Shown in pieces: positions 53,401 through 58,818 of a stretch of 64,000 nt of DNA. The stretch's first letter is position 1. Each line of letters opens with the position of its first letter. The notes below the pieces were generated by a model. The model was not told the DNA's origin, did no database searches, and saw only the letters and a list, made by a program, of their open reading frames with translations. Location: NCBI GenBank assembly GCA_022767285.1, contig JALENY010000025.1:1-64000 (forward strand). Reading direction: 5' to 3'. The translations under genes were made by a program, and so were the position numbers. The stretch comes from Lachnospiraceae bacterium (GTDB lineage Bacteria > Bacillota > Clostridia > Lachnospirales > Lachnospiraceae).

Positions 53401-54585
53401 TTAGATTTTTTCATGATTTCTATGTTTTGTGAGGATCTTATTGATTCGGTCAATAGGATTCAGAAGTTCACTAATGGAAAGATCATGATTTATTGTATCA
53501 ATGATCAATGCCATGAACTTGCACATATCACATTTTATATAGTATTCTTTTTCCATCAATTCCGGTGGCTGATAAACCAGGTTTGTGGTTACCAGGCAGT
53601 CAAAAAGTCCTTCTTTGTAAGCTTTGTCAAATTTTTCAATTCCGTTTGTGAACAGCCCGAAGGTAGAGCACATGAAGATTTTTCCGGCTTTTTTCTTTTT
53701 CAGGAGAGCTGCTACTTCCAGCATGCTGTCGCCGGAAGATATCATGTCATCAATAATGATCATGTTCTTGCCTTCCACATCGGCACCAAGAAATTCATGA
53801 GCAACGATCGGATTACGCCCATCGATGATGGTGGAGTAATCACGACGTTTGTAGAACATACCCATATCTACCCCCAGAACGTTTGCCATATAGATCGCTC
53901 TCGGCATACCGCCTTCGTCCGGGCTGATGACCATCAGATTGTCTTTATCAACTTTCAGATCCGGTTCGTGGCGCAGGATGTTTTTGATAAACTGATATGC
54001 CGGCTGAACCGTTTCAAATCCATGCAGAGGGATCGCATTCTGAACTCTGGCATCATGGGCATCAAAGGTGATGATATTTTCCACTCCCATATCAACCAGT
54101 TCCTGCAGGGCATTGGCGCAGTCCAGAGACTCCCGGCCATTGCGTTTGTGCTGACGACCTTCATACAGATAGGGCATAATTACATTGATACGGCGTGCTT
54201 TCCCGCCTGCAGCGGCAATGACACGCTTCAGATCCTGAAAATGATCGTCCGGGGACATATAATTGGTGTAACCGCATACGGAGTAGGTCAGGCTGTAGTT
54301 ACACACATCAACTAATATAAAGAGATCATCGCCACGTACGGATTTCGTAATCGAGCCTTTTGCCTCGCCGGAACCAAAACGCGGAACTTTTGCTTCTACA
54401 AGATAGGAATCACGCAGATAACCAAGTGACATAGGGTTATAGCTGTGTTCCTCCCGTTCCTTTCTCCACTGTACGATATATTCATCGATTTTTTTGCCTA
54501 ATTCCATGCAGCCGCTTAATGGGATAATACCAAGCCTTCCTACTGGAAGTGTATCAAGATCCGGGCTATTCGTTGGTTCGATCAT
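53401..54585 (-). CDS. prs: Ribose-phosphate pyrophosphokinase, long form
   Basis: 394 residues, longer than the classical 315-residue enzyme. It makes PRPP for nucleotides, His, Trp and NAD. Recognisable: NVIMPYLYEGRQHKR (ribose/ATP region), LDCANALQELVDMGVENIITFDAHD, VISPDEGGMPRAIYMAN and the PRPP loop MIIIDDMISSGDSM. The extra length is mostly at both ends and near YSLTYSVCGYTNYMSPDDHF. Such long Prs proteins are common in Lachnospiraceae beside a standard copy. It is coupled (ATGA) to the dnaI-like gene before it. Confidence 0.88.
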   Translation of the reverse strand: MIEPTNSPDLDTLPVGRLGIIPLSGCMELGKKIDEYIVQWRKEREEHSYNPMSLGYLRDSYLVEAKVPRFGSGEAKGSITKSVRGDDLFILVDVCNYSLTYSVCGYTNYMSPDDHFQDLKRVIAAAGGKARRINVIMPYLYEGRQHKRNGRESLDCANALQELVDMGVENIITFDAHDARVQNAIPLHGFETVQPAYQFIKNILRHEPDLKVDKDNLMVISPDEGGMPRAIYMANVLGVDMGMFYKRRDYSTIIDGRNPIVAHEFLGADVEGKNMIIIDDMISSGDSMLEVAALLKKKKAGKIFMCSTFGLFTNGIEKFDKAYKEGLFDCLVTTNLVYQPPELMEKEYYIKCDMCKFMALIIDTINHDLSISELLNPIDRINKILTKHRNHEKI

Positions 54586-55577
54586 TGTTTTCCTCCTAAT
54601 AGTCTTTTCTGAATTCGGATGTCATTACCGATCAGTTTTATCATAGTATAATGACTGGTTATGCGGGAAAATATACGCTCCGAATAGGTGTCGCTGAATT
54701 GATCGAGAGACAGATTTGTGGAAATAATCGTAGATTTCTTCCGCATAATTCTTTCGTTAATGCACTGAAATAGTGCGGATGCCACGAAACTGTTTGTCAG
54801 TTCGGTTCCAAGGTCGTCGATAATGAGAAGATCACACTCCAGAATATCATTTTGCGTATCGGCGATGCCGGATTCTCTCCGGAATGTATTTTTGGCCAGC
54901 TTATCAAAAAGATCAAATGCGGAAAAATAGATCACACAGTGAGCCTGATCGATCAGTTCCTTTGCAATGCAGTGTGACAAAAAGGTTTTTCCCACGCCGG
55001 TGTTTCCGTACAGAAAAAGATTCTGGAATCGGCGGTCAAAGTTATTGATAAACTGTCTGGCCTTGGCTACCGCATCTTCAGCGGTCTCCCGGGCAGTCAG
55101 ACCCGTGGCTTCGTTCCTTATTGTATCAGAATAAAACGAAAAAGAAAAGGAATCGAAGTTCTCTTTTTTCAAAATTTCTTCAAGATTAGACTGTTTGTAC
55201 AATAAATCGACGGCAGCCTTCCGAAAACATTGGCATTTTTGTCCATCCACATATCCGGTATCCTGACAAGTCGGGCAGTCATACTGCATGGACAGATAAT
55301 CTTCCGGATATCCATTGGCCCAAAGCAGCTGTCGACGCTCCTGAGCGAGAGCTGCGATTTCCTGTTTGTAAGCAAAGCTGGCAGAGGTGCGGCTGTTACC
55401 CAGCCGACGCCGAATGGCCTGAAGACTGACGGCTGTGATTTCCCGCTCAATTTCCCGAAGACGGGGAATTTTCTGATAGACTTCCTGTTTATGTTCTTCC
55501 AGAATATGGCGATGCATCAGCTGTTTGCGGTTATATTCCCGCATGATTGTATCATATTGTGAATTCTGTAATGGCAT
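54582..55577 (-). CDS. Helicase loader ATPase, DnaI/DnaC-like
   Basis: 331 residues. The N-terminal part has a zinc-binding-type set CPTCQDTGYVDGQKCQCF (about 117-134), as in DnaI proteins. The AAA ATPase has Walker A LYGNTGVGKTFL (about 194), Walker B LLIIDDLGTE and an arginine-finger region SRITSHYT. It loads the replicative helicase with the DnaD-like protein encoded just upstream. Transcribed on the minus strand in the order dnaD-like, dnaI-like, prs, with an 11-base gap before and a four-base overlap after. Confidence 0.9.
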   Translation of the reverse strand: MPLQNSQYDTIMREYNRKQLMHRHILEEHKQEVYQKIPRLREIEREITAVSLQAIRRRLGNSRTSASFAYKQEIAALAQERRQLLWANGYPEDYLSMQYDCPTCQDTGYVDGQKCQCFRKAAVDLLYKQSNLEEILKKENFDSFSFSFYSDTIRNEATGLTARETAEDAVAKARQFINNFDRRFQNLFLYGNTGVGKTFLSHCIAKELIDQAHCVIYFSAFDLFDKLAKNTFRRESGIADTQNDILECDLLIIDDLGTELTNSFVASALFQCINERIMRKKSTIISTNLSLDQFSDTYSERIFSRITSHYTMIKLIGNDIRIQKRLLGGKQ

Positions 55578-55588
55578 TCTATTCTCCT

Positions 55589-56842
55589 TTACTGGTTCAG
55601 AAGCTGACTTTCGAGGGAGTCAAAATCATAGGCGCGCTGATTAAAATTGGAAAACTTAGTGGCAGCCGGTTTGGGATTCCGCCGTGTCTTCTTTTCTGCT
55701 TTTGCCTGTTCGTGTGCGGTATCCAGTTTCCGAACATCCTGAATCGTACGTGCTCCCGCATTTTTCCAGCTTTCGAGAATGCCGTTTACGTAGGACAGCT
55801 CCGGCTGCTTTGTAGTCAGAATCGTCCGGGTGCATGCCTCAACGATCAGCTCCATGGAAAAGTCATTCAGCCATCTTTTCATGGTGTTGATTTCCGCATC
55901 AATGGGTGAGCGGTTGCGGATGCCAAGAGCCTTAAAAATAGTGTAGTATTCTTTTTGATAGCCGGACGAAGTTTTTTTGGCGGCCTCTACCGTAGAGATA
56001 CCTTCGCTTTTCCAGTTCAGGGCAACTTTTTCAATATAGTTCATACTGCGGTGATTGTTGCCCACACAGTATTCAATCAAATATTCAATCAAATCGGTAG
56101 AGAAATTCAGTTCGTCATAAAAATAAAGAATTTTCCCTGTCTCCATGGGACTTAAGGTTTTGCCCAGGTATTGCTCCGCAATAAACAGAAGCTGGGCGAT
56201 ATCTTCATTTTCCTTTAATTGCCGGATTTTATCTGCTGTTAATGTGTTTTTCCGGCTGGATACCTGCTTTTCAGCGGCAGTCTGTGCAGAAGCTGGCCCG
56301 CTCTTAAGCGTTTCCGTAGGATCATGGAATCCTGCGGGTTCTGCATTGGAGAAGATTTTACCGGAAACAGCCATATCGGAGTCGACAGTGCCCGGGACCG
56401 CTGTGTTGAAATTGCCAGCGTTGGCTGACGCATCGCCGGAACATGCGGCATCTGTGACTTTATCCGCAGAATCTGTTTTGTCAGATCCTGTGTCGGCGGA
56501 AATCTCCGGTCTGTTGGCTTGCGGAACCGCTGTGCGGGAAACCATGTCTGCGGTAGGCTCCAGAAAAGAGATTTGTTTCAGCTTTCTGCTGCCGTCAAAA
56601 TCCAGAGCCAGAAGTCCTTCTTTTGCCCAGTACCGCAGTGCCCGCAGAACGTCTTTTTCCGTACAGTTCATAGAATCGGCGATGGTACTCAGACTGAATT
56701 CCGGTAACTGGGTCGCGCGCAGAAGATACAGATAGATCTTCACGAACTCTCCGTTTGCCTGAGACATATAGTTATCCAGAAAGTAATTTGGTATTATGGT
56801 AAACCCTGTAGGGTGACTGGTATGTAGGGTAATATTGCTCAT
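55589..56842 (-). CDS. DnaD-domain primosome protein
   Basis: 417 residues. The N-terminal winged helix (FTIIPNYFLDNYMSQANGEF, LSTIADSMNCTEKDVLRALRYW) resembles DnaD/DnaB of Bacillus. Then comes an Ala/Ser/Thr/Asp-rich linker of about 75 residues, then two DnaD C-terminal domains (LSPMETGKILYFYDELNFS, about 228; APIDAEINTMKRWLNDFS-like, about 320) ending in YVNGILESWK, the YxxxILxxW signature. It remodels the origin and recruits the DnaI-like loader. It is first in its operon; a cluster of DnaA boxes lies directly upstream. Confidence 0.88.
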   Translation of the reverse strand: MSNITLHTSHPTGFTIIPNYFLDNYMSQANGEFVKIYLYLLRATQLPEFSLSTIADSMNCTEKDVLRALRYWAKEGLLALDFDGSRKLKQISFLEPTADMVSRTAVPQANRPEISADTGSDKTDSADKVTDAACSGDASANAGNFNTAVPGTVDSDMAVSGKIFSNAEPAGFHDPTETLKSGPASAQTAAEKQVSSRKNTLTADKIRQLKENEDIAQLLFIAEQYLGKTLSPMETGKILYFYDELNFSTDLIEYLIEYCVGNNHRSMNYIEKVALNWKSEGISTVEAAKKTSSGYQKEYYTIFKALGIRNRSPIDAEINTMKRWLNDFSMELIVEACTRTILTTKQPELSYVNGILESWKNAGARTIQDVRKLDTAHEQAKAEKKTRRNPKPAATKFSNFNQRAYDFDSLESQLLNQ

Positions 56843-56918
56843 TTTTTCACCTGCTTTTCATTCTGCAAGGATTATAACACAGTAATTTGGGAATGAAAAT
56901 AGGCAGTTTGCGCGGGGA

Positions 56919-57183
56919 AATCCACAGAAAAACCGAGGAAAACACTGTGGATAGTGTGAATATTGTGGATAACTTTTGGGCATGTGGATTATGCGAAACT
57001 GAGAATGTCGAATATATGCGGTTTCTGCAAGGAATCGTCGGAAAATCTTGTCGGATTATGTAAACAAAGATATGCACAAAAAAATCCACAGGTCGGTACA
57101 CACGAAAATGTGAATAAACCTGTGGATAATGTGGATAAGTGCCGCAGCACGGCATAAAATCAATATTTCACGGGTGTTGATAA
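56919..57183. promoter_or_regulatory. DnaA-box cluster
   Basis: Exact TGTGGATAA (TTATCCACA) boxes are at 56964-56972, 57121-57129 and 57130-57138, the last two in tandem. TGTGAATAA at 57109-57117 is also of the TTATNCACA class. Near matches lie at 56946, 56983 and 57175 in the same direction, and at 56919, 57070 and 57082 in the other. This makes about ten boxes in 265 bases, between murC and the dnaD-like operon. Confidence 0.8.
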
Positions 57184-57192
57184 CTTTTTTCG

Positions 57193-58572
57193 TTATTTCC
57201 CCAAAAGTTCCTCTCCGATATTTACCACATCTCCTGCTCCCATAGTGATCAGCAGATCACCCGGAACGCAGTTTTCCAGTAAATAATCCTCAATTTCACT
57301 GAAAGACGGAAGATAACATACCTCTGTCCCCTTTGCTTCGACCTCTTTGCGCAGGTCATCAGAGCTGATTCCCAGTTCATTTTTTTCGCGGGCGGCATAG
57401 ATGTCTGCAAGAACCACCCGGTCTGCCAGCGTCAGCGCTTCGGCGAACTCCGAAAGCAGCGCTTTGGTACGGGTGTAAGTGTGGGGCTGGAATACGCACC
57501 AGAGTGTCTTGTGTGGGTAATTTTTTGCCGCAGTCAGCGTTGCCCTGATCTCTGTTGGATGGTGGGCATAGTCATCGATGATGGTCACGCCGCCGACTTT
57601 TCCTTTGTACTGGAAACGGCGATCGGTTCCGGTGAAGTTTTCAAGGCCCTTTTTAAGAACATCGACGGGAATCTGCAGAACACAGCCCAGTGCAATGGTG
57701 GCGAGGGCATTTGAAATATTGTGTGCGCCCGGTACATGCAGGGAGAAACGGCCAAGCAGTTCGCCGCTGCGTATGCAGTCGAAAGAGCCGTAACCGGATT
57801 CATCATAGGTAATATTGGCTGCGGTAAAGTCAGCAGAATCTTGCATGGAATATGTGATCACCTGACAATCCAGATCTTTTATAATTTCGTCATATTTTGG
57901 TGTATCGGCATTGATGATCAGAGTTCCGTCGGAAGGGAGCAGTTTCGCAAATTGGCGGAAGGAATTGCGGATATCGTCAATGTCTTTGAAAAAGTCCAGA
58001 TGATCTGCATCTACATTTAAGATAATGCTGATCTTCGGGAAAAAGCTCAAGAAGCTGTTGGTGTATTCGCAGGCCTCCGTGATAAAATTTTCGGACTTGC
58101 CAACACGAATATTGCCGCCGATGGCGGGGAGAATACCGCCCACTGAAATGGTGGGATCCATGTCGGCCTGGAGCAGTATATGAGATGCCATGGAAGTGGT
58201 CGTGGTTTTTCCGTGTGTTCCGGAGACGGCGATTGGAGTTCTGTAATTGCGCATGATCTGTCCCAGAAGCTCAGCTCGGGTGAGCATGGGAATCTGTTTG
58301 GCTGCCGCATGGGCATATTCCGGGTTATCCGGGTGGATGGCAGCTGTATATACGATCAGATCGACGGAATCGCCGATATTCTCTGCCCGCTGCCCGATAT
58401 ATACTTTAGCTCCGAGACTTTCCAGGTGACGGGTCAGCTCGCTTTCTTTTGCATCAGAACCGGAAATCATAAAATCTTCTTTTAAAAGAATTTCAGCCAG
58501 ACCGCTCATGCTGATACCGCCAATCCCGATAAAGTGGACGTGAATCGGTTTATGAAAATCAATGGTATACAT
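57193..58572 (-). CDS. murC: UDP-N-acetylmuramate-L-alanine ligase
   Basis: 459 residues. It adds L-alanine to UDP-MurNAc in cell-wall precursor synthesis. Seen: HFIGIGGISMSGLAEIL at the start, ISGSD, the ATP loop VSGTHGKTTTTSM (about 110-122), ACEYTNSFL, LNVDADHLDFF, GAHNISNALA and DDYAHHPTEIRAT. The frame is open far upstream to 58800, but the ATG at 58572 gives the family's N-terminus and has GAAAGAAGGTAC before it. It is transcribed toward the DnaA-box cluster; its own promoter lies in the gap to glgC. Confidence 0.96.
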   Translation of the reverse strand: MYTIDFHKPIHVHFIGIGGISMSGLAEILLKEDFMISGSDAKESELTRHLESLGAKVYIGQRAENIGDSVDLIVYTAAIHPDNPEYAHAAAKQIPMLTRAELLGQIMRNYRTPIAVSGTHGKTTTTSMASHILLQADMDPTISVGGILPAIGGNIRVGKSENFITEACEYTNSFLSFFPKISIILNVDADHLDFFKDIDDIRNSFRQFAKLLPSDGTLIINADTPKYDEIIKDLDCQVITYSMQDSADFTAANITYDESGYGSFDCIRSGELLGRFSLHVPGAHNISNALATIALGCVLQIPVDVLKKGLENFTGTDRRFQYKGKVGGVTIIDDYAHHPTEIRATLTAAKNYPHKTLWCVFQPHTYTRTKALLSEFAEALTLADRVVLADIYAAREKNELGISSDDLRKEVEAKGTEVCYLPSFSEIEDYLLENCVPGDLLITMGAGDVVNIGEELLGK

Positions 58573-58818
58573 GAATATGTACCTTCTTTCCTGAATGATT
58601 TGATCTTTTCCAATTATACCCTGATTCGTAAAAAATGAAAAGTATTTCTTCGTTTTTACCCGGGAATTTCCGTGTTTGCAAAAAAATGGTATCAGAAAAA
58701 GGAAAAAACAGTTGCTTTTTGCAGAATCAACTGACAAAAACTGGGAAAATGTCATAAAAGGATTTGCTGTAACGGGGATTAATTTGTAAAAATTGTTCAC
58801 TTAAGTCCTTATGTATGT

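Follow-up and report, generated by a model that had tools for sequence, protein, structure and literature searches.

The locus described here raises the question of why a dense cluster of predicted DnaA boxes should lie between murC and the dnaD-dnaI-prs operon in a member of the Lachnospiraceae, a major gut family in which, to our knowledge, little is known about the control of initiation. The analysed stretch of 64,000 nucleotides, called the window below, is part of contig C37 of a draft genome of 2.67 Mb. A first-pass annotation of the window had drawn attention to the cluster and had proposed three possible roles: a DnaA-titrating site, a DnaA-controlled promoter of the helicase-loading genes, or an auxiliary origin. 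Gene identities were checked against NCBIfam and Pfam, and the features of the locus are collected in Table 1. The loader gene is also matched by the DnaI and DnaC models, at scores below their cut-offs. Both murC and the dnaD operon (53401-58575, minus strand) run counter to the GC skew, which is mostly positive in the window, and their transcription may be head-on to replication.

Table 1. Genes, box arrays and transcription signals of the murC-dnaD region, in window positions
Feature	Position	Strand	Details
murC (upstream neighbour)	57193-58575	-	TIGR01082 485.6 bits (cut-off 335.1); stop codon 57193-57195
Array 1	57109-57138	-	abutting exact boxes 57130-57138 and 57121-57129, then TTATTCACA 57109-57117
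murC intrinsic terminator	57078-57127	-	5' arm 57117-57127; 3' arm 57084-57094; T-tract 57078-57083
Array 2	56946-56991	-	TTATCCACA 56964-56972, ATATTCACA 56955-56963, CTATCCACA 56946-56954, all abutting; further upstream box TAATCCACA 56983-56991
Predicted dnaD promoter	56871-56899	-	-35 TTTTCA 56894-56899; 17 bp spacer; extended -10 TGTTATAAT, hexamer 56871-56876
dnaD-family primosomal protein, two DnaB_2/DnaD domains	55589-56842	-	TIGR01446 102.7 bits; PF07261 141.6 bits, two stretches
dnaI/dnaC-like helicase loader, AAA+	54582-55577	-	NF005304 388.8 bits
prs-like ribose-phosphate pyrophosphokinase	53401-54585	-	NF005299 579.7 bits

The gap of about 350 bases between the murC stop codon (57193) and the dnaD ATG (56842) carries three exact TTATCCACA boxes, two of them in tandem, as had been reported. 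Besides the one-mismatch box TTATTCACA, the near matches of the annotation could be located as three more one-mismatch boxes starting at 56946, 56983 and 57175, the last being a weaker TTATCAACA box at 57175-57183 beside array 1, and as two-mismatch sites starting at 56918, 56955, 57070 and 57082. Every exact and one-mismatch box of the gap is on the minus strand, which is the sense strand of dnaD. The near match at 57082-57090 is inverted and falls within the 3' arm of the murC intrinsic terminator, and that at 56918 is likewise inverted. Exact boxes are expected by chance at 0.52 per 64 kb, or about 0.003 for the gap, in agreement with the earlier estimate of far below one. An open reading frame of 102 aa (56847-57155) was judged spurious because the gaps of relatives vary in length and carry T-tracts, so that the gap can be regarded as gene-free, as had been claimed. 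A comparison with Rfam revealed no RNA family here, apart from one sub-threshold chance match inside dnaD. Pattern searches of the whole genome found 60 exact boxes, compared with 10 occurrences of the reversed 9-mer used as a control. At least three exact boxes within 300 bases were found at only three sites, namely oriC on contig C13, the murC-dnaD gap, and C40:22301-22372, and clusters as dense as this one are thus not common in this genome.

The locus was compared with relatives and with 80 named loci from public genomes, including Blautia parvula, Roseburia hominis, Lactonifactor longoviformis, Anaerobium acetethylicum and Butyrivibrio fibrisolvens 16/4. Downstream of dnaD, dnaI is present in 80/80 loci and prs in 79/80. 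A set of 99 murC-dnaD gaps (33 kb) contained 254 exact boxes, 249 in the dnaD sense and 5 antisense, with at least one exact box in 90 of the gaps; the reversed 9-mer occurred twice in the same gaps, and the other 572 kb of these loci held 20 exact boxes. The abutting 18-mer was found in 89 of 150 genera of the Lachnospiraceae, its reversed control in none, and 18 of the 30 examined loci carrying it were murC-dnaD. The cluster is thus shared by relatives with the same gene order. Several further families of the order have boxes as well (L021, L023, L026), while a murC-anchored pattern searched in 291 genomes of the class matched in the same family only, and box clusters were lacking from 26 dnaD loci sampled in other families of this class. 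As far as sampled, then, the cluster is confined to the Lachnospiraceae together with some other families of that order. Boxes accompany dnaD where murC is not upstream (L121, L148) and where an insertion separates murC (L116); they are absent from two other loci lacking murC upstream (L081, L108), and have been lost in some relatives (L006, L008, L022, L077).

Across relatives array 2 consists of two to four abutting boxes and lies mostly 140-190 bp beyond array 1, ahead of an extended -10 promoter of dnaD-dnaI-prs. Promoters were located by consensus match, the consensus across loci being TTCTCt-N17-TATAAT with TGC preceding the -10. Of 109 loci, 93 have a TGnTATAAT-like site following array 2, whereas shuffled sequences would give 5, and a box with at most one mismatch overlapped the core promoter in 1 of 69 loci. 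The spacing between array and promoter was analysed in these 69 de-duplicated loci. Distances from the start of array 2 to the -10 fell into groups with means of 75.8, 86.0 and 96.5 bp and few values in between, and the steps of 10.3 and 10.5 bp match a helical turn better than the 9-bp repeat of the boxes. The Rayleigh R was 0.83 at 10.5 bp (69 loci), with p ~1e-21, although such p-values overstate the significance because the loci share ancestry. This phasing exceeded that of 20,000 jittered nulls and held separately within two-box and three-box arrays. The distance from the -10 to the ATG showed no period (p 0.28 at 10.5); it served as the control in place of the motifs CCA and TTTT, which are not clean since they overlap boxes or box flanks. 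When the spacing classes were placed on a DnaD tree, about 22 changes were needed by parsimony; for the two largest classes, well-supported branches, which make up only part of the tree, forced at least seven changes each. This count limits the problem of shared ancestry without removing it, and is a better guide than the p-values. The distance from array 1 to array 2 was phased as well, with a period of about 11.35 bp (0 of 5000 nulls). The window itself was left out of the 69 loci, since two mismatches occur in one box of its array 2; array 2, starting at 56972, is 96 bp from the -10, which fits the classes of the relatives, and array 1 is 166 bp from array 2. As expected of a DnaA-controlled promoter, consensus boxes conserved in relatives therefore lie upstream of the promoter, in a constrained position relative to it. 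In several of the loci that kept only one array (L091, L099, L112, L118) it is still 85-98 bp from the -10. Five lineages (L007, L091, L094, L112, L118) have a gap of only about 130-150 bp with one array, in several of them at the usual distance from the -10, and look as if the DNA between the arrays had been deleted.

In most relatives only a few bases separate the start of array 1 from the murC stop codon, and in the window the TTATTCACA box of the array is 12 bp from the second box. That second box makes up the 5' arm of the murC terminator. The hairpin of the window has a folding energy of -22 kcal/mol (z -6.6; 0 of 200 shuffles were equally good), and such a hairpin was found in 87 of 135 gaps. 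In those 87 gaps the inner stem positions just inside the box paired at 0.91, 0.87 and 0.77, compared with 0.47, 0.29 and 0.29 with shuffled partners. Just downstream of the terminator TTTACATAA is kept in 34 of 101 gaps (0.7 expected), and in the window near 57060-57068. An inverted TTATCAACA conserved within murC in relatives was discounted, since it represents codons of the LLIT motif of that gene.

Related box arrangements were also encountered away from dnaD. The site on C40 (L032 9302-9373) belongs to a second recurrent element (further loci L203-L232), in which TTATCCACA is followed after about 53 bp by TTATRCACNRAN-TTATCCACA-TTATCCACA. In 37 of 150 genera the strict 3' part is present as a single copy per genome; the reversed control is found in none. 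Of 30 loci, 19 have the element upstream of an hpf-like gene, often beside secA; in the genome studied here it is located between trxB and ntpD, which encodes a V-type ATPase subunit. A search for a phased promoter at this element found none. Three genomes (G052, G155, G162) have tandem sites of abutting boxes 34-51 kb from dnaA, reminiscent of ori-proximal DnaA-box clusters, and a fourth (G063) has one at 985 kb.

Boxes, conservation, phasing, terminator and gene order are established by the sequence, and the gap is probably a DnaA-responsive control region of the dnaD-dnaI-prs operon. Among the roles first proposed, the evidence strongly favours a DnaA-controlled promoter of the helicase-loading genes, since the arrays are conserved with dnaD and phased to its promoter, and whole-turn phasing would be needed by a protein acting on RNA polymerase from upstream and not by an origin or a sponge. 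We infer that DnaA would bind array 2 upstream of the extended -10, in most lineages on a constant face of the helix with respect to RNA polymerase. It would also bind array 1, which in most lineages is roughly 13-18 helical turns farther upstream, and the DNA between the arrays may form a loop. Array 1, as part of the murC terminator, would insulate dnaD from murC read-through, and the amount or nucleotide state of DnaA would set transcription of the helicase loader. In B. subtilis DnaD restrains cooperative DnaA binding (Bonilla and Grossman 2012, as cited in PMC4447404), and therefore a feedback loop on initiation could be closed. Against DnaA control speak the abutting boxes, which are unlike E. 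coli pairs and the dnaA loci, the loss of boxes in some relatives and their absence from two loci lacking murC upstream, and the B. subtilis direct DnaA regulon as known, from which dnaD is missing. The mode of binding is uncertain because the 9-bp repeat differs both from the E. coli pairs, 2-3 bp apart, and from the pairs at dnaA loci, 11-12 bp apart.

The effect of DnaA on the promoter could be either activation from upstream or repression through a loop between array 1 and array 2. We lean somewhat towards activation, because the boxes leave the core promoter free. Repression, which would itself be a form of DnaA control, is less probable but is kept in consideration by the mutual phasing of the arrays. 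It is opposed by the several lineages in which only one array remains, at its customary spacing from the promoter, since a loop cannot be essential to what is conserved. Still more speculative, and on balance doubtful, is an extended reading in which the abutting boxes would be read in a binding mode not used at oriC, and the phased arrays would form a looped switch coupling both loader synthesis and the termination of murC to the DnaA cycle, as a feedback on initiation at the level of transcription that is specific to the Lachnospiraceae and their relatives.

A locus that titrates or inactivates DnaA and thereby delays initiation, with no role at the promoter, would share with datA, DARS and the B. 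subtilis clusters the dense boxes outside oriC. B. subtilis has six such clusters, and their removal advances initiation (PMC13220808); dnaD is also 138-667 kb from dnaA in the eight relatives with both genes on one contig. However, titration needs neither promoter phasing nor the 249:5 orientation bias nor co-segregation with dnaD, and only 3 of the 60 exact boxes of the genome are in the gap. The known loci act on DnaA availability or nucleotide state (PMC13220808), whereas the cluster studied here is linked to a promoter. That the gap serves mainly for titration thus appears unlikely, though titration may occur as a side effect. It is less probable again that a DNA-binding protein other than DnaA reads the abutting 18-mer. 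This explanation draws on the zero spacing. Double boxes in E. coli (purH, polA, nrdA, DARS2) are likewise pairs of equally oriented boxes, found at promoters and regulatory loci, but E. coli DnaA prefers pairs 2-3 bp apart, one extra bp strongly lowering binding (PMC11317965), whereas the pairs here abut without a gap; close pairs in the tested dnaA loci are also spaced at 11-12 bp and not at 9. Yet the consensus for DnaA is this very 9-mer; the dnaD gaps contain, in addition, 52 same-strand pairs with the usual spacing of 12 bp, like the second and third boxes of array 1; and the DnaA of this genome has a Bac_DnaA_C domain. That the repeats are mainly terminator sequence, with an incidental likeness to DnaA boxes, is highly improbable: the second box of array 1 does build the stem, but the first box and the whole of array 2 lie outside the hairpin and keep the exact 9-mer, and in L116, with a gene-length insertion after murC, array 1 is still near array 2. 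Equally improbable is an auxiliary origin, to which dense DnaA boxes adjoining helicase-loader genes had pointed, since the GC skew has no sign change at the site, remaining positive between about 8 and 64 kb in the window, the box spacing is unlike that of dnaA loci, and oriC, in this lineage adjoining dnaA and dnaN, is on C13 (rnpA side, dnaA, dnaN, recF, gyrB, gyrA), away from the window.

Control of dnaD-dnaI-prs by DnaA can be compared with known systems. Promoters regulated by DnaA in B. subtilis, sda among others, likewise have several boxes in the promoter region, and at sda mutations in single boxes lower expression (PMC4447404). Among the genes listed as the direct DnaA regulon of B. 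subtilis, dnaD is missing (PMC8203912), whereas the target here is the dnaD-dnaI operon, with boxes that abut at 9 bp, whole-turn phasing across the family, and one box that doubles as a terminator stem. Predicted DnaA boxes are likewise present upstream of Caulobacter dnaB, a helicase gene of the DnaA-dependent set (PMC8203912); that case differs in phylum, in concerning the helicase rather than its loader, and in that the boxes are predicted only. Searches of full-text articles, among which most subscription journals are missing, brought up no report linking DnaA to dnaD in Lachnospiraceae or Clostridia. The rows of predicted DnaA sites suggest that in these bacteria the initiator controls the supply of its own helicase loader. 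If true, this would be a direct and testable link between initiator level and helicase-loader supply, and the abutting boxes would bear on how DnaA packs on DNA.
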